From positions 1 through 39,963 of the IMG/VR virus record IMGVR_UViG_3300045119_000034: a stretch of 39,963 nt of DNA; one strand, given 5' to 3'. The position numbers and the translations under genes were made by a program. How positions within the stretch are numbered: position 1 is the first letter of the stretch; the number at the start of each line of letters is the position of its first letter. The DNA is from a virus. A model generated the notes under the pieces. That model ran no database searches and was not told where the DNA came from. It saw only the letters and a list, made by a program, of their open reading frames with translations. Shown here piece after piece: positions 4,821 through 29,918 of this stretch.

Positions 4821-5321
4821 TCAAGTGATCTGGCTTTGCAGACTTGGACGATTGATAAGCGCAACAATCGTCGATGTCGTTGTCGTAACGGTTGCAAGGT
4901 TTGCCGACCGTGTATTCGTCAATTGCAGACCGGCAGAGGCTACCGCCTTCACACGTCCTGCCGTTGCTGAGAGGTACATCGCAACAGTCGGATTAAACTG
5001 CACGTTAGTTTTTAGGATCGTTGCCAGACCGCAAATCTGATACCACCCATAAGAGGCGGCAACGTTTGCAGCCATAGCAACCGCTATCGGCGTATCCTGT
5101 ACCGCTGTATTCGTCACCAACGTTGTCTGAAACGTTGTGGCGTTATAGCGGACAACAAGACCGGCAACAGTATTTACGACACCCAAAAGGTAGATAAATT
5201 CGCCGCTACCCAACGTTGGGTCTTTGGCTCTTACAATCTTACCTAATGGATGATTCTGCGTTGTTGAGATAGTCGTAATCGGCTGCAAACCGATTTCAGG
5301 TTCAGTGATTTTGTAGGTCAT
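4821..5321 (-). CDS. Putative head decoration protein
   Basis: A 166-aa protein directly after the major capsid gene, with a good ribosome site (AGGAG, 7 nt before ATG 5321). It is almost entirely small, Thr/Ala/Val-rich beta sequence with no charged helices, as in capsid decoration or stabilisation proteins. It is followed at once by a strong terminator, so it is likely co-expressed with the coat protein at high level. No catalytic motif is visible. Function inferred from place and composition. Confidence 0.65.
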   Translation of the reverse strand: MTYKITEPEIGLQPITTISTTQNHPLGKIVRAKDPTLGSGEFIYLLGVVNTVAGLVVRYNATTFQTTLVTNTAVQDTPIAVAMAANVAASYGWYQICGLATILKTNVQFNPTVAMYLSATAGRVKAVASAGLQLTNTRSANLATVTTTTSTIVALINRPSLQSQIT

Positions 5322-6319: not shown

Positions 6320-7462
6320 TTAGTCAATGCCTGCGCTTTCAAGTGCGTTAGAGAGGATCGCATCTAATCCTTTGACTTGACTCGCGCCCTTTGGAGAAAT
6401 CGAGGACGTTTTAACGGCAGAAGCCTTCTTGGCCTTCTCAACCGCCTCCTGACGTGCCTTTTCCGCATCCGCCGAAACGCGATTGCGCTCGGTTTCAACA
6501 GTTTGCTTATACAGTTCATCATCAAGACGAACTGCCTTACTATAGGCACTATCCCAGGTGTCGGCCTGATTGGTCGCGACCAATTGGATCATGGTTTTAG
6601 CCACCCGACCGAAGTGCGGGAATTTTGGCTGACCACTTTCATCCTTGATCTGACCTAAGGCGTCGAACTCAGCTTGCGCTCGTTGAGTCTCATCAATCTT
6701 TCGTTGCTCACCAATCTGCCGCAATTGCTGTTGCAGACCATTAACTGTCTGGTGCAATTGCAAAACGGCTGGATCGGGACCAGTCCCGTCAGCCCGTGGA
6801 GGAATACCCAAGGCATTTAGCAATTCAGGAATAGGCACTTGCCTATGCTGTACGAGGTAAGCGATAGCGTTGGCCCGCTGATTGGGATCACCAGACAGGA
6901 GGTTGGTTGCGACATTTCCAGACTCCGCAATGAATTGTTGCGGGGTCATATTCATGTGTCGCAGCAACGGGTCCAGTCTTTGGAACTCACCAATGACAGG
7001 CTCAATGCTCTTGCGCGTCTCGGCTACTTCTTGAGTTTTCCGTGTGTAATCAGCTTCCATTCCCTTGTACCGTTCGGCCACAATCTCTTGTGCCTCGCGC
7101 GGTAGCGCTGAGAACTTGGCTTTGTCCTCCGGTGACCATCTTTCAGGCGGCGCAATTGGCTGTATTTCTACAGGTTGCGCGATGGTGGCGGCGGGTTTTG
7201 CTTCGCCCTCGGCTGGTACGGCCTTGGCCGTGGCCTCAGGTTCGGCGGTTTTCTTCGATGCAAACTTGCCGTCAGCGGCGTGCGCGCGGCCAGTTTCATC
7301 AATCTTTAATTCATCGGCGGTTTTTTCAGGCGGTGCTTCTGTTTTCTCAGCGGCCTTTACAGGTTCTTCGCTGTAATTCTCCATCGCACCCGATATGACT
7401 TTATCCAGCGCATCGCCAGCAGGCTCAATTTCTTGAGGGCTGACAACTTCAACGTCAGGCAT
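6320..7462 (-). CDS. Capsid scaffolding protein
   Basis: A 380-aa acidic protein between the portal group and the coat gene, with an AAGGAG ribosome site. Residues 1-115 are low complexity (Ala, Glu, Pro, Lys). Residues about 105-180 contain WSPEDKAKFSALPREAQEIV followed by long helices. Residues 230-285 form a Gln-rich coiled coil, and the C terminus is helical and basic (EAVEKAKKASAVK). This is the normal build of scaffolds, which guide coat assembly and leave the prohead. No protease gene lies next to it, so it probably exits intact, as in P22. Confidence 0.85.
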   Translation of the reverse strand: MPDVEVVSPQEIEPAGDALDKVISGAMENYSEEPVKAAEKTEAPPEKTADELKIDETGRAHAADGKFASKKTAEPEATAKAVPAEGEAKPAATIAQPVEIQPIAPPERWSPEDKAKFSALPREAQEIVAERYKGMEADYTRKTQEVAETRKSIEPVIGEFQRLDPLLRHMNMTPQQFIAESGNVATNLLSGDPNQRANAIAYLVQHRQVPIPELLNALGIPPRADGTGPDPAVLQLHQTVNGLQQQLRQIGEQRKIDETQRAQAEFDALGQIKDESGQPKFPHFGRVAKTMIQLVATNQADTWDSAYSKAVRLDDELYKQTVETERNRVSADAEKARQEAVEKAKKASAVKTSSISPKGASQVKGLDAILSNALESAGID

Positions 7463-19403: not shown

Positions 19404-19658
19404 CTACCGGCGAGTAATCTCGACAATTACCGCCGCAATCACGATTGCGGGCGGCTCGTACTCTCCTGAAAGCCATCGTTTAGCAGTGCGCTCATCCCGA
19501 CCCGAAATGTTCGCAAGGTGAGCAGCGGTCTTGTTCGGCCATAAAAGCCGCGCAACCGCAGCGAATTTGAGCGGAGGGACAAGCGTGTCCTTTTTAGGAT
19601 CGGGTTGTCCCTGGATTTCTCTGGTGATGATTTCGGAATTACCGAATGGTGAACGCAC
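19404..19658 (-). CDS. Small HTH-like regulator
   Basis: An 84-aa protein with a GTG start (19658) and a strong ribosome site (AGGGGG 5 nt upstream). Residues 31-70 (FAAVARLLWPNKTAAHLANI, then RDERTAKRWLSGEYEPPAIV) read as a helix-turn-helix in which TAAHLANISGRDERTAKRWL forms the two key helices. Third gene of the leftward early operon, after the Cro-like and winged-helix genes; a CII-like or other control role is possible. Confidence 0.72.
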   Translation of the reverse strand: MRSPFGNSEIITREIQGQPDPKKDTLVPPLKFAAVARLLWPNKTAAHLANISGRDERTAKRWLSGEYEPPAIVIAAVIVEITRR

Positions 19659-20432: not shown

Positions 20433-20711
20433 ATGGTCACAAAAGCCAAGACGCCCCAAAGACAGGAAGCTGCCCGTCTAGATAGGGTCCAGACAGCCCT
20501 AGAATTGACCAATGAGGCGTTGGCGGGGAAAATAGGCATCACCCCCCATGCATGGTCACAATATCGCACGGGTGCCCGTCCTATTAGCCGGGATGCCCTG
20601 CGTATGCTGCGGAAAGACTATGGAATTACGGCAGATTACATCATTTTTGACGATCCTAGCCGACTTCCGCAGGATGTTTATGCCAGAATAAGGCTCTCTG
20701 GCGCGGCCTAA
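20433..20711 (+). CDS. HTH repressor (cI-equivalent, single domain)
   Basis: A 92-aa XRE-type protein from ATG 20433; in-frame alternatives are ATG 20370 or GTG 20367, and none has a clear ribosome site. LTNEALAGKIGITPHAWSQY (about 28-47) plus RTGARPISRDALRMLRKDYG give a full helix-turn-helix fold. It lies between the two operator groups and is transcribed toward the integrase side, just as lambda cI is. There is no S24 peptidase or dimerisation domain, so it cannot self-cleave. Induction must work another way. That it is the prophage repressor is inferred from this layout. Confidence 0.82.
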   Translation: MVTKAKTPQRQEAARLDRVQTALELTNEALAGKIGITPHAWSQYRTGARPISRDALRMLRKDYGITADYIIFDDPSRLPQDVYARIRLSGAA

Positions 20712-20734
20712 ACTACCGTCACAATCCGACTTAT

Positions 20735-20747
20735 TCACAGCCTGTGA
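20735..20747. promoter_or_regulatory. Repressor operator, distal site of the rightward control region
   Basis: TCACAGCCTGTGA. Centre at 20741, 22 bp from the next site, so on the same face of the helix (two turns). Confidence 0.85.
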
Positions 20748-20756
20748 TGCTATCCG

Positions 20757-20769
20757 TCACGGGCTGTGA
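20757..20769. promoter_or_regulatory. Repressor operator, middle site of the rightward control region
   Basis: TCACGGGCTGTGA, the reverse complement of the leftward site. It lies just upstream of the -35 of the early promoter; its centre is 31 bp (three turns) from the promoter-embedded site. Confidence 0.87.
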
Positions 20770-20777
20770 TTTTGCTA

Positions 20778-20807
20778 TTGACAGCCATCACGGGTTGTGA
20801 GTATGGT
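20778..20807 (+). promoter_or_regulatory. Rightward early promoter (PL-like)
   Basis: -35 TTGACA (20778-20783), 18-nt spacer, -10 TATGGT (20802-20807), start near 20813-20814. The operator 20788-20800 fills the spacer. The first gene starts at 20833 with AGGAG. It should drive the whole rightward operon through integrase to 29.9 kb. Confidence 0.85.
20788..20800. promoter_or_regulatory. Repressor operator inside the rightward promoter
   Basis: TCACGGGTTGTGA, placed between -35 and -10 of the rightward early promoter in the same register as the operator in the leftward promoter. Confidence 0.87.
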
Positions 20808-20832
20808 GGTTTTACCAAATCAGGAGCCGCCC

Positions 20833-23911: not shown

Positions 23912-24054
23912 ACATACCGCTCATCCCTTGGCCGTTTCTATTGTTGGCTGGATGGTATGAGCAGCAAAAGAGAATACGCGAGATGAAAGAACGAAACGAA
24001 AAATCTGACGATGAACGCAAGTCGGGACACAAACAACCAACCGGGACTTTTTGA
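23908..24054 (+). CDS. Membrane-anchored microprotein (48 aa)
   Basis: Starts in an ATGA overlap with the HNH gene. Residues 3-17 are hydrophobic with two prolines (IPLIPWPFLLLAGWY); the rest is a charged helix (EQQKRIREMKERNEKSDDER). This resembles a short N-anchored cytoplasmic peptide. Function unknown. Confidence 0.5.
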   Translation: MNIPLIPWPFLLLAGWYEQQKRIREMKERNEKSDDERKSGHKQPTGTF

Positions 24055-24061
24055 CAGATAT

Positions 24062-24829
24062 ATGAGCAACACCGAGAAACTATCTGAAACCATCACGGTC
24101 CATCTCGGGGACTGCAGAGAGATATTGCCAACACTCGGAACCCTTGATGCCATCGTTACTGATCCGCCCTATGGGATTGGAGAAAACGATAAAAAGGTAG
24201 CCTCGCGCGGTAAGTTGGCAACGCCGAAAGACTATGGTTCTTTTGAATGGGACAAAGAGCCTCCGCCATCATGGCTAATAGCTATGCTTCGCGAGATCAG
24301 CCGCTATCAAATTATTTTCGGCGGCAATTATTACACGCTGCCACCAACCTCTTGCTGGCTGGTTTGGGATAAAAAGAACGGCAATAATGATTTTGCCGAT
24401 TGCGAACTGGCGTGGACTAATTTGCCTAAGGCTGTGCGCCGCGTTGAATGGCTCTGGAATGGAATGATCCGTAAGGGATCGGATATTCGTGAGCATCCCA
24501 CGCAAAAGCCTCTTGGCGTCATAGCCTGGGCCCTAGATCAATTGCCCGAGGATGTGACGCAGATTTGCGACCCTTTCATGGGGTCAGGGACCACGGGAGT
24601 TGCGGCGGTCAATAAGGGCCTTTCATTCATCGGGATAGAGCGTGAGGTCAAATACTTTGACAGCGCGCGCCAGCGACTCTCTGAGGCGCTTAAGGCCCCT
24701 AAATTATTCGTCTCTGGCCCTAAGCCTGCAGAACAACTCGGGTGGGATGAAATGTGGGGAAAGCCATTCGACAAGCCGGAATTGGTTTGGGGGCCAGACA
24801 AAACCAACGACCCAATCATTACCGACTGA
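24062..24829 (+). CDS. DNA methyltransferase 1 (N6-adenine/N4-cytosine type)
   Basis: A 255-aa enzyme with motif IV DPPYG (about 34-38) before motif I DPFMGSGTTG (about 170-179), so the beta order of amino-methyltransferases. HPTQKP lies between them. I chose ATG 24062 because the distance to LGDCREILPTL then equals that of the paralog downstream; the frame also opens at 24011. It has a C-terminal tail of about 35 residues (QLGWDEMW, KPFDKPELVWGPDKTND) shared almost exactly with methyltransferase 2. No restriction enzyme gene is adjacent, so it is a solitary enzyme, probably for anti-restriction. Confidence 0.9.
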   Translation: MSNTEKLSETITVHLGDCREILPTLGTLDAIVTDPPYGIGENDKKVASRGKLATPKDYGSFEWDKEPPPSWLIAMLREISRYQIIFGGNYYTLPPTSCWLVWDKKNGNNDFADCELAWTNLPKAVRRVEWLWNGMIRKGSDIREHPTQKPLGVIAWALDQLPEDVTQICDPFMGSGTTGVAAVNKGLSFIGIEREVKYFDSARQRLSEALKAPKLFVSGPKPAEQLGWDEMWGKPFDKPELVWGPDKTNDPIITD

Positions 24830-24886: not shown

Positions 24887-25660
24887 ATGATACGCACAGA
24901 AACCATAGCCGAAGGCGTGACGCTATATTTGGGCGATTGCCGCGAGATATTGCCGACACTTGCTCTCCATGATGTTCTTATAACCGACCCCCCCTATGGG
25001 ATCGGCTACGATACTGCTGGCCTACAGTCGGCAGGATCGCAGCAATTTCAGGCAATCGAGGGTGACGACAAGGAACCCGATCTTTCGGCCATATTTGCCC
25101 TTCCATGCCCAAAGGTAATTTTCGGCGCGAATAACTTCCCCAAACAGTTGCCGCATCGTGGGCGCTGGCTCTGTTGGGATAAGCGCGGCGGCATAGAAGC
25201 CGCCGATAGAATGCTTGGCTCTCCCTTTGAACTGGCTTGGGAGGACCGCACAAGTGGCTATGATCGAATTGTTAGACTGCTGCATGGTGGCACAGTAAAC
25301 GCCGATGGACATGGCATCCAGAGAGAACACCCGACGCAAAAACCAATAGAGCTAATGAAGCGCTGCATTCTTAATTTCAAGAAGGCTGACACAATCCTTG
25401 ATCCATTCATGGGGTCTGGAACAACTGGCGTAGCTGCGGTTCAACTCGGCAGAAAGTTCACCGGGATCGAGATAGAAAAGAATTACTTTGAAATAGCCTG
25501 TAAGCGCGTTCTAGCGGCGACGAAGCAGGGCGATCTTTTCATAGAAAAGCCCGCGCCAGCAAAACAGCTTGGGTGGGAAGAAATGTGGAAGAAGCCATTC
25601 GACAAGCCGGGGTTGGTCTGGGGACCGGACAAAACCAACGACCAAATCCTTAACGACTGA
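24887..25660 (+). CDS. DNA methyltransferase 2 (N6-adenine/N4-cytosine type)
   Basis: A 257-aa paralog of methyltransferase 1. DPPYGIGYD (34-42), EHPTQKP (147-153) and DPFMGSGTTG (172-181) are all present, so it is expected to be active. The core differs from methyltransferase 1 between the motifs, i.e. in the target-recognition part, which suggests a different recognition site. The last 35 residues are nearly the same in both. QGDLF (214-218) resembles a sliding-clamp binding peptide but is unproven. Confidence 0.9.
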   Translation: MIRTETIAEGVTLYLGDCREILPTLALHDVLITDPPYGIGYDTAGLQSAGSQQFQAIEGDDKEPDLSAIFALPCPKVIFGANNFPKQLPHRGRWLCWDKRGGIEAADRMLGSPFELAWEDRTSGYDRIVRLLHGGTVNADGHGIQREHPTQKPIELMKRCILNFKKADTILDPFMGSGTTGVAAVQLGRKFTGIEIEKNYFEIACKRVLAATKQGDLFIEKPAPAKQLGWEEMWKKPFDKPGLVWGPDKTNDQILND

Positions 25661-25871: not shown

Positions 25872-26219
25872 ATGACCGGCGACAATGACACCATCACCCT
25901 GAAGGATGCCGCGCAAAAGCACGGCTATTCGGTATGGACATTGCGCGCTGAAGCGTCACGCGGGCGCTTGACAATCTATAAGATCGGTAAGCGATACTAT
26001 ACGACGCCAGCCGACATTCGGGAGATGGTCGAAAAATGCCGCGTCGAGCTAAAGGGCCAAGGCTTTACCTTGATCCGAAGCGCAAGCAATGGGTCATCCG
26101 AGACGGACCGCGCTTCGTCCGCACTGGCTGCGGCAAGGGAGACAGCGGCGGGGCTGAAAAGGCACTCGCGCAATACATTGGACACAAGCACAAGCCCAAG
26201 GCATCGAGTGCGCCAATGA
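25872..26219 (+). CDS. xis: Excisionase-like DNA-binding protein
   Basis: A 115-aa protein. Residues 8-55 (ITLKDAAQKHGYSVWTLRAE, RGRLTIYKIGKRYYTT, DIREMVEKCR) are a MerR/excisionase winged helix: helix, turn, helix, a basic wing and a closing helix. It lies directly before integrase. The last 60 residues are read from the same DNA as the integrase N terminus in another frame and look unstructured. It should steer integrase toward excision. Confidence 0.85.
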   Translation: MTGDNDTITLKDAAQKHGYSVWTLRAEASRGRLTIYKIGKRYYTTPADIREMVEKCRVELKGQGFTLIRSASNGSSETDRASSALAAARETAAGLKRHSRNTLDTSTSPRHRVRQ

Positions 26220-27007
26220 TTGCGGATGTCCTCAACGTCTATAGCCAGGAAGTTGCAGCCCATAGGGCGAGCGCCAGCAACATAGGCTATCAGGTGGACG
26301 CGCTATTGAATTGGTGGGGAGAAAAGAATGTCGCGCAAATCTCAGCGAAAGCGTGTCGCGAGTATGCCGGCTCGAAAGCCGAGCAAGCGGCGGCGCAAGA
26401 CCTTAAAATCCTCAGGGCGGCGGTCAACCATTGGCACAGGGAGCACGGACCACTTGTATTTATCCCTTCTTTCTACACTCCGCCGCCTTCAGCCCCAAGG
26501 GAGCGTTGGTTATCACGTGGAGAGTGTGCGCGTCTTTTACAGGCGGCCAAACCCTACCCATATCTCAGACGTTTCATTGTCTTGGGGCTTTACACCGGAT
26601 CGCGCCCCGGAGTCATCCTCAAGCTCAAATGGATACAGGTTAATCTGCAATCCGGGATATTGGTTCGGACTCTGGCTAGACAAACGAAGAATAAAAAATC
26701 CCCCCCTGTCAAGCTTGGGCGTAGGGTCATTTCCCATTTACGCCGCTGGAAAAAATTAGACGGTAATACCGAATTTGTCTGCGGCGGCTATGATGATCCG
26801 CATGCCTCTTGGAAAAAAGTGGTGACAGCCGCGAAACTAGAGGGCGTCACCCGCCATACGCTGCGTCATACGCGGGCAACGTGGCTCATGCAGGCTGGCG
26901 TCCCGATCTGGGAGGCGGCTGGCCATTTAGGGATGACCACAAAGACGCTGGAAAGCGTTTACGGCAAGCACTCTCCGGACTTCCAGGAACACGCCGCGAA
27001 CATATAG
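26036..27007 (+). CDS. int: Tyrosine-recombinase integrase
   Basis: A 323-aa integrase. The N-terminal beta segment (RLYLDPKRKQWVIRDG) is the type seen in Rhizobiales integrases, then the SAM-like core-binding domain (about 55-140). The catalytic set is complete: R190 (GSRPG), a basic beta-hairpin with K218-K221, H274 and R277 (HTLRH), H297 (GHLGM) and Y309 (ESVYGKHSP). It integrates the phage into the host chromosome. Its start overlaps xis by 184 bp. Confidence 0.95.
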   Translation: MPRRAKGPRLYLDPKRKQWVIRDGPRFVRTGCGKGDSGGAEKALAQYIGHKHKPKASSAPMIADVLNVYSQEVAAHRASASNIGYQVDALLNWWGEKNVAQISAKACREYAGSKAEQAAAQDLKILRAAVNHWHREHGPLVFIPSFYTPPPSAPRERWLSRGECARLLQAAKPYPYLRRFIVLGLYTGSRPGVILKLKWIQVNLQSGILVRTLARQTKNKKSPPVKLGRRVISHLRRWKKLDGNTEFVCGGYDDPHASWKKVVTAAKLEGVTRHTLRHTRATWLMQAGVPIWEAAGHLGMTTKTLESVYGKHSPDFQEHAANI

Positions 27008-27978: not shown

Positions 27979-28263
27979 ATGCCAAAAGAGGAAAAAATGA
28001 CCGTCAATCTGGTTTGCAGCAAATGCGGCTGCGAGAATGTAAAATGGTTTACAATGGTCGGTTGCGATAGGTGTTTTGATTTTGAGGTGACTCCTATGGA
28101 CAGAAACAAGGTTATCGAAGAATGCGCCTCAATCGTTGACGCAATTCTCAGAAAAGACGAGGAAACTGCTCACATCGATTCAGTCATGAGCGACTATGCC
28201 ACTTCTGGATATAGAAATGCACTGAGGACGGCCGCTGAAGCAATCCGAGCTCTTAAACGTTAA
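27979..28263 (+). CDS. Zinc-ribbon small protein
   Basis: A 94-aa protein; ATG 27997 (GAGGAA upstream) is a likely alternative start to 27979. N-terminal zinc ribbon CSKCGCENVKWFTMVGCDRC (13-32), followed by a helical domain with EECASIVDAILRKDEE and YRNALRTAAEAIRALKR. Resembles small regulatory or nuclease-accessory zinc ribbons. Last gene before the ORF-free stretch. Confidence 0.68.
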   Translation: MPKEEKMTVNLVCSKCGCENVKWFTMVGCDRCFDFEVTPMDRNKVIEECASIVDAILRKDEETAHIDSVMSDYATSGYRNALRTAAEAIRALKR

Positions 28264-28290
28264 CCGCCGCATAACGAAAGGAACACAAAT

Positions 28291-28571
28291 TCGCTGGATG
28301 GTAGGGAGGCGTCTCGCACCCGAGAGTATAGCGACAAACTCTGGAATAGGATTGACGGGGCATCTTTCCCCAGAACGCCGTGGCGGTTATCGGTTGCATC
28401 TTCGGATGCGCGAGACGGCCGAATCCAAAGCGGTGATTTCGGTGCCCAGGAAATTATAATGGCCCTACAACGCGAGTCTACGACTTTATGACGGTAATTG
28501 CCCTCGACCGGCCTCGCTCACGGTCCAAATTGATCAGTAGGCAATCCGTAAGCCGCCGAGGCGGGCCGTCG
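28291..28571 (+). ncRNA. Candidate structured RNA (ORF-free, hairpin-rich)
   Basis: The 327 bp between 28263 and 28591 have no ORF of 60 codons in any frame and no tiny ORF with a ribosome site. They fold into many helices: TCGCT/AGCGA (28291-28295 with 28330-28334) around TCTCG-CACC-CGAGA; GGATT/AATCC (28349-28353 with 28422-28426) enclosing GGGG/CCCC, CGCC/GGCG and a UUCG-capped GCATC/GATGC hairpin (28396-28409); AGTC-TAC-GACT; and a long GC stem 28504-28515 with 28557-28571. The plus strand is likelier, as all genes here run plus. No known family recognised. Confidence 0.5.
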
Positions 28572-28590
28572 CCAGACCAGGAGATTAAAT

Positions 28591-28740
28591 ATGGCGCATA
28601 GAGTTTGTCCTAGATGTGGTGAGAAAATCGAGCCTGGTAGCGTTATTGAGTTTGTTCGCGTGGAAATAGCTTGGTGGAATTTATGGCGCGGGCGCTTGCA
28701 ATGGGTACATGAAAACTGCCAACCGCATATTTGTGGCTAG
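28591..28740 (+). CDS. Zinc-binding microprotein (49 aa)
   Basis: ATG 28591 with AGGAG 7 nt upstream. CPRCGEKIEPG (6-16) and C(Q)PHIC (43-48) give four possible zinc ligands around a short beta hairpin (VIEFVRVEIAWWN). Similar to one-ribbon phage proteins. Function unknown. Confidence 0.6.
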   Translation: MAHRVCPRCGEKIEPGSVIEFVRVEIAWWNLWRGRLQWVHENCQPHICG

Positions 28741-29442: not shown

Positions 29443-29538
29443 ATGCAGGAAACGTCTTGGGCCGTCTCCGTTCGCGGCTGCGAGGACCACTTGACGTTTG
29501 GCAACCCGCCGGAGCGGCCTGCTGCTCATTCTAGGTAG
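29443..29538 (+). CDS. Possible 31-aa microprotein
   Basis: MQETSWAVSVRGCEDHLTFG then a Pro/Arg-rich end. It fills the gap between two genes and stops 3 bases before the next ATG. No ribosome site; doubtful. Confidence 0.3.
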   Translation: MQETSWAVSVRGCEDHLTFGNPPERPAAHSR

Positions 29539-29541
29539 ACA

Positions 29542-29871
29542 ATGACTGACATAATGGAAAGATTGCGGACGGTTGGTCAGGATGGAATGTCAACTGAAGT
29601 TGAAGAAACGATGCTTGAGGGGGCCGCCGAAATCGAGCGGCTGCGGGCGGCGCTAGACCCCGTGCGGCTTTTATCTGTAATTACAACTTGGAACAACACG
29701 CGCCAAATTATGCATTATAGCGATATTCTTAAGTTGGCCGGTCTTATCTCAAAGTCAGACGATGTTCAGCAGACAACGGATAAATGCCAGAAATGCGGTA
29801 CGGCATTAGATGGGGAAGTCGCGTTGGTGGGTGGCCAACTCTGGTGCCATTCTTGCGCGGATGGACGTTAA
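29542..29871 (+). CDS. Last rightward gene, Ead-like N terminus and zinc ribbon
   Basis: A 109-aa protein. The N-terminal helix with EGAAEIERLRAAL resembles the repeated EAA-IE-LR helix of early phage Ead/Ea22-type proteins. The C terminus has CQKCG and CHSC (about 82-105), a zinc ribbon. It is followed 13 bp later by the terminator that closes the rightward operon. Role unknown. Confidence 0.72.
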   Translation: MTDIMERLRTVGQDGMSTEVEETMLEGAAEIERLRAALDPVRLLSVITTWNNTRQIMHYSDILKLAGLISKSDDVQQTTDKCQKCGTALDGEVALVGGQLWCHSCADGR

Positions 29872-29883
29872 CATCACAACAAT

Positions 29884-29918
29884 AAAAAAGACCCCGCTGC
29901 CGGGAGGCGAGCGGGGTC
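29884..29918. terminator. Bidirectional terminator at the meeting point of early and late operons
   Basis: GACCCCGCT (29890-29898) and AGCGGGGTC (29910-29918), an 11-nt loop. On the minus strand it is followed by TTTTTT, so it ends the late operon; on the plus strand it is followed by TAAGTTT and can also stop the early operon. It sits between convergent genes. Confidence 0.9.

Follow-up and report, generated by a model that had tools for sequence, protein, structure and literature searches.

Genomic setting

The DNA analysed here, a stretch of 39,963 nt referred to as the window, is the IMG/VR virus record IMGVR_UViG_3300045119_000034. The phage is temperate, with Erf/RecE recombination genes, two methyltransferase genes and an integrase gene (26036-27007); its capsid/lysis region is encoded on the other strand. 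Integrase relatives indicate Rhizobiales hosts. The methyltransferase genes are adjacent (24011-24829 and 24887-25660) and match the same PHROG families, and they are likely a duplication or a pair of different specificity. The segment 27043-27182, just past the integrase gene, is conserved in three integrase relatives (L002-L004), while in another (L006) a matching stretch is separated from the integrase gene by about 2.5 kb more; the segment may be attP or the border of a cargo region.

Two copies (W1 and W2) of a short conserved element were found in one gene cluster (Table 1), each in front of a small open reading frame. The product encoded behind W1 gave weak zinc-ribbon matches in Pfam and PHROG, below the cut-off, and has a relative at a separate locus (L035); the frame behind W2 has an in-frame coding signal of +6.0 bits. 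Both these genes (28591-28740 and 29542-29871) encode small CxxC zinc-ribbon-like proteins, whereas the gene behind the third copy, in another phage (locus L036), does not. At 29880-29910, between convergent gene sets, the minus strand carries terminator-like hairpins with T runs, and this region folds stably on both strands.

Table 1. Positions of the two element copies, their helices and the neighbouring open frames in the window
Feature	Position	Strand	Basis or remark
Motif copy W1, pseudoknot RNA	28496..28568	+	blastn to L036, covariance model R2, descriptor match
W1 P1, 5' strand AUUGCC	28497..28502	+	pairs with 28540-28545
W1 P1, 3' strand GGCAAU	28540..28545	+	
W1 hairpin P2, GACCG (28506-28510) / CGGUC (28521-28525), 10-nt loop	28506..28525	+	
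W1 pseudoknot strand CCUCG in P2 loop	28512..28516	+	pairs with 28557-28561
W1 pseudoknot partner CGAGG	28557..28561	+	
W1 GNRA-like turn C-GUAA-G, between P1 and 3' strand	28547..28552	+	
W1 optional hairpin CCGC-CGAG-GCGG	28553..28564	+	invariant in 3/3 copies, so no covariation test
Motif copy W2	29450..29521	+	covariance model R1, descriptor match
W2 P1, 5' strand AAACGUC	29450..29456	+	pairs with 29493-29499 GACGUUU
W2 pseudoknot strand CUCCG	29466..29470	+	pairs with 29510-29514 CGGAG
75-codon open frame without ATG/GTG/TTG	28264-28490	+	stop ends 6 nt before W1
53-aa ATG ORF	28298-28459		no coding signal
37-aa ATG ORF	28488-28601		no coding signal
Shine-Dalgarno-like AGGAG of gene behind W1	28579..28583	+	sequence
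ORF behind W1, 49 aa, zinc-ribbon-like	28591..28740	+	starts 22 nt past motif
ORF behind W2, 109 aa, C-terminal CxxC...CxxC	29542..29871	+	starts 20 nt past motif

Folding of the region 28264-28590

In the first-pass annotation, the stretch 28291-28571 had been proposed as one large multi-junction non-coding RNA of no recognised family. The individual helices named in its support are present: the UUCG-capped hairpin GCATC-TTCG-GATGC lies at 28396-28409, a single hairpin and the only cUUCGg hairpin (stem of at least 4 bp) in the window, and the complementary segments GGATT/AATCC and TCGCT/AGCGA also occur. The supposed richness in complementary segments is not beyond chance, since 28291-28571 contains 49 five-bp complementary pairs as compared with 38.5 +/- 8.1 in shuffled sequences and 42.2 +/- 10.3 in other 281-nt windows. 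The folding check against shuffled sequences, proposed together with that annotation, gave no excess stability for 28264-28590, the z-score of the minimum free energy being +1.37 on the plus strand (93 of 100 shuffles folded at least as well) and +0.69 on the minus strand. In a scan of 1330 windows of 120 nt, the region ranked as relatively unstructured for this phage; the largest stability excess (z about -4 to -5.3) was observed for the windows 20701-20820, 5041-5160, 6901-7020 and 19501-19620. No match to Rfam 15 was detected at the gathering threshold in the entire window, nor at E<=5 for this stretch, and tRNA/tmRNA and other known RNA families also gave no match for it. Its 5' two thirds have no homolog. 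On folding energy and helix counts, a large non-coding RNA over the entire stretch was thus dropped. What the annotation anticipated in kind, a structured phage RNA without a family assignment, is present: W1, a pseudoknot of only 73 nt at the 3' edge, which resembles an mRNA leader more than a free-standing RNA. The helices that define W1 differ from those that had been named.

A 10-nt perfect inverted repeat, likely a chance occurrence, was noticed between 28333-28342 and 28600-28609, the latter corresponding to codons 4-7 of the downstream gene. No direct repeat family was found within 28200-28650.

Identification of three copies of the element

IMG/VR was scanned by peptide pattern with each open frame of the stretch as a query. 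A single match was obtained, through the 3'-most frame (65% identity over 26 residues), to L036, which is part of a 46.7-kb viral contig. On the DNA level, L036 contains a 70-nt stretch that is 82% identical to 28499-28568 and includes an invariant 24-mer; blastn of W1 against L036:2997-3069 gave an E-value of 3e-13 in that locus. No protein matches with E<=1e-3 were detected between the window and the compared 22 kb of the L036 record, and, as judged from the parts compared, the two phages are unrelated. A second short similarity between these otherwise unrelated phages is a 29-bp stretch of 93% identity, shared by 29626-29654 of the window (inside the gene behind W2) and L036:4776-4804.

A covariance model, R1, was constructed from W1 and L036; it contains the helices P1 and P2 only, and not the pseudoknot helix. 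Applied to the window and related loci, R1 detected the second window copy, W2 (29448-29523), with 36 bits and E 7e-6 in 233 kb, and with the filters off at E 1.3e-6 in the window, these E-values being rough owing to a short calibration. With the filters off, W1 scored 88.6 bits with the covariance model R2. W2 is only 51% identical to W1, yet every helix is kept. It is located about 950 nt from W1 on the same strand, in a gap of 110 nt between two same-strand ORFs with room for the motif only.

Architecture of the element

In each copy, the hairpin P2 lies inside P1, a linker of 14 nt separating the P2 and P1 strands, and a further helix is formed between the P2 loop and a strand located 3' of P1. 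Since this last helix crosses P1, the element is a pseudoknot. The ungapped alignment of L036 to W1 gives P1 as GGUGUC/GACACU and P2 as GGCCG/CGGCC, while P2 of W2 is GGCCG/CGGCU. The GNRA-like turn after P1 reads C-GUAA-G in W1 and L036 and G-GCAA-C in W2, the closing pair being swapped. A GAYCA string ahead of the P1 3' strand and an invariant CCGC....GCGG are common to the copies.

CCG/CGG blocks occur four times in the element, so that P2 and the 3' hairpin can swap strands, forming a long rod around the CCUCG/CGAGG helix. Energy minimisation without pseudoknots prefers such alternative rod-like folds. This accounts for standard folding showing nothing unusual here; a structured RNA can escape minimum-free-energy tests when its key pairing is a pseudoknot.

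Covariation and specificity of the structure

Comparison of W1 with L036 revealed three pairs changed on both sides, but this two-copy test is weak, its level being reached by 3% of column shuffles in one test and by 76/500 in another. In the three-row alignment (W1, L036 and W2), which was fitted to P1 and P2, 98% of the cells pair and 7 of the 17 pairs change on both sides, a level of covariation reached by 0/500 shuffles, with 0-1 for slid controls. The double-sided changes include four of the seven pairs of P1 across the three copies and an A-U to G-C change in P2, which also shows one G-C/G-U pair. For the pseudoknot helix, CCUCG/CGAGG in W1 is replaced by CUCCG/CGGAG in W2, two pairs being changed on both sides. 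As this helix is absent from R1, and yet is double-changed in the copy that R1 detected, it was counted in favour of the pseudoknot. The G-U pairs assign the element to the plus strand, on which the neighbouring genes are also encoded.

A structure-only descriptor (6-bp P1, 5-bp P2 and 5-bp pseudoknot helix with fixed spacings) matched W1 and W2 only in the window, with 16/16 and 15/16 Watson-Crick pairs, respectively. The minus strand gave no match, and neither did 40 shuffled versions of the window. The structure of the element, of which only three instances in two phages are known, is well supported by sequence comparison.

Search for further copies and related families

No further copy was detected by blastn of 50,697 phage records with W1 and W2 as queries, and no fourth instance by a plasmid search with W1. 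Covariance-model searches of 385 and 393 alphaproteobacterial genomes gave no accepted further copy. The bacterial matches obtained (L049-L053 and L075) scored 24-34 bits, about the chance expectation over that many genomes, and the best of the order search (L075) overlies genes on the other strand, without the pseudoknot pairing. Searches of phiCbK, CcrPW, ppBjS10J-1, RHph_I3_18 and additional records of phages and viruses were negative for the motif; for phiLM21, 16-3 and PBC5, where the initial 50 kb were covered, the result was the same. The zinc-ribbon relative L035 is without the motif, and the integrase relatives L002-L011 are without this cassette.

Rfam gave no match at W1 up to E 5-10, and the matches at L036 and W2 were weak and to unrelated families; none of the copies thus has a meaningful match to an Rfam family, including tmRNA, RNase P, 6S, GOLLD, ROOL, ribozymes and riboswitches. 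No description of this motif was recognised in the open-access literature.

Open frames upstream of W1

The stretch had also been described as empty in all frames. This is correct for ORFs of at least 60 aa, none of which exists in 28264-28590, but not for shorter ones, which include ATG ORFs of 53 aa and 37 aa and the 75-codon open frame (Table 1). Coding scores by a codon model and a phase-specific Markov model were ambiguous to poor in any frame, none being convincing; neighbouring ORFs that are probably real are equally short, and some real-looking short neighbours likewise score poorly. Homologs of the open frame 28264-28490 were sought and not found. DNA matches of the stretch to Rhizobiales genomes were chance matches of 20-50 nt to GC-rich pieces.

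The segment 28264-28490 may be a short, unusual or decayed gene, or a spacer. We lean slightly against the first of these, a short gene with an unusual start or a remnant of one, by which the order gene, motif, gene would be the same as at W2. A strong Shine-Dalgarno-like AAAGGA (28277-28282) follows the previous stop codon and is itself followed by ATT (28289), CTG (28294) or ATG (28298) as possible starts, and the open frame ends 6 nt ahead of W1, just as W2 starts about 20 nt past a stop codon; a coding signal is, however, absent in every frame of the segment, as are homologs. A short gene at this place is compatible with the leader pseudoknot proposed below.

Proposed function

Comparison of the three copies fixes not only the pairing and the strand but also the position of the element. 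The distance from the motif end to the ATG is 22 nt for W1, 23 nt for L036 and 20 nt for W2, on the coding strand in all three, and W1 and the L036 copy are followed closely by a Shine-Dalgarno-like sequence and the ATG. The genes behind the three copies are non-homologous, with no obvious common pathway. In L036 the gene encodes what we take to be a DUF6197-like protein and is followed by a terminase small subunit gene. The constant spacing of 20-23 nt, together with the unrelated genes behind, suggests an action in cis on translation initiation or on the stability of the downstream message.

Based on these features, we consider that 28496-28568 is probably a cis-acting 5' mRNA leader pseudoknot that controls translation initiation. 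We infer that it would be transcribed as the 5' leader of gene 28591 and that the leader RNA would then fold with P1 enclosing P2 and with the P2 loop paired to the strand 3' of P1. W2 would serve gene 29542 in the same way, and the third copy the DUF6197-like gene near the terminase genes of the L036 phage. A phage or host protein would bind the pseudoknot, as gp32 does in T4; alternatively, an equilibrium between the pseudoknot and the rod would set the access of ribosomes. The downstream genes gave no hint of a riboswitch ligand.

That the element is a real structured RNA with a role other than in translation appears unlikely to us. It might then be a transcription antiterminator read by RNA polymerase, as in the case of HK022 put, or a place in a polycistronic message where the RNA cleaves itself or is processed by an RNase, or it might make up the body of a small RNA acting in trans. 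Having two copies of about 73 nt, the phage does resemble HK022 with its two put RNAs of about 70 nt (PMC9378689), pseudoknots are common in ribozymes, and W1 and W2 share a strand within a single gene cluster. Antitermination, processing or a small RNA would, however, not need the narrow spacing of 20-23 nt to the start codon. Moreover, only 950 nt of one cluster separate W1 from W2, promoter-like sites adjoining the copies were not found on the plus strand, and Rfam gave no match to ribozymes of the HDV-like, hammerhead and other families.

It is very improbable that the element is the 3' domain of one large structured RNA spanning 28291-28571: 28264-28490 lacks a convincing coding frame and L036 likewise has no clear same-strand ORF just upstream of its motif copy, but W2 stands alone in its 110-nt gap, and the 200 nt upstream of W1 have no homolog, fold no better than shuffled sequences and form helices at the chance level. 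Equally slight is the probability that the similarity between W1 and L036 reflects not an RNA structure but conservation of a short peptide, a binding site in double-stranded DNA, or chance: the first match to L036 was obtained with a translated frame, in which several of the W1/L036 differences are synonymous, but W2 alters most of the peptide frame while keeping all helices, DNA inverted repeats do not account for crossing helices, the shared 24-nt block is identical at every codon position, and the covariance-model and descriptor statistics are far from chance. A shared peptide as the source of the L036 match was rejected, as W2 retains the helices and loses the frame.

Comparison with known systems

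For the leader pseudoknot favoured here, the closest formal likeness is the leader of T4 gene 32, a phage mRNA leader that also carries a pseudoknot ahead of the start codon, where binding represses translation (PMC3014915). The T4 pseudoknot consists of two helices, is located 67 nt upstream of one gene and is followed by an A+U-rich tract. In contrast, the element described here has a third helix and a spacing of 20-23 nt and precedes several unrelated genes, the products of which (zinc-ribbon-like, 109-aa and DUF6197-like) are not recognisable as gp32 but may include autoregulators of another kind.

The SAS/ESAS elements of Cluster K mycobacteriophages are likewise repeated immediately upstream of the start codons of genes of different families (PMC3203893). 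The ESAS inverted repeats vary in ways that argue against RNA pairing, and the authors favour a DNA site (PMC3203893), whereas the changes among the copies of the present element support RNA pairing and a pseudoknot. ESAS consists of 17-bp inverted repeats beside the 13-bp SAS, and no 13-bp repeat of the SAS type accompanies the present element.

The putL and putR sites of phage HK022 are two related structured RNAs of about 70 nt per phage that act within the transcript (PMC9378689). Each put RNA forms two stem-loops downstream of early promoters, and no pseudoknot is mentioned in that paper. Unlike the present element, which differs in topology, put has no fixed relation to a start codon.

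GOLLD and ROOL resemble the element in being structured phage RNAs, but they are several hundred nt long, as compared with 73 nt here, and neither family matches in Rfam. HDV-like ribozymes, which also gave no Rfam match, form a nested double pseudoknot with a catalytic C, in which the P2 and P1 strands join directly, whereas a 14-nt linker separates these strands in the present element.

To our knowledge, essentially one case of a phage pseudoknot leader that controls translation is known. A broader proposal, which we regard as tentative and rather doubtful, is that the three copies represent a new family of phage leader pseudoknots, each genome using them in front of several unrelated genes, in which a loop-loop pairing between two hairpins would convert, through the CCG/CGG exchange, into the one long rod. 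This two-state switch would respond to a factor of the phage or the host and control translation of the gene that starts 20-23 nt further on. If true, the element would be a portable module of translation control, reused before different genes and in different phages.
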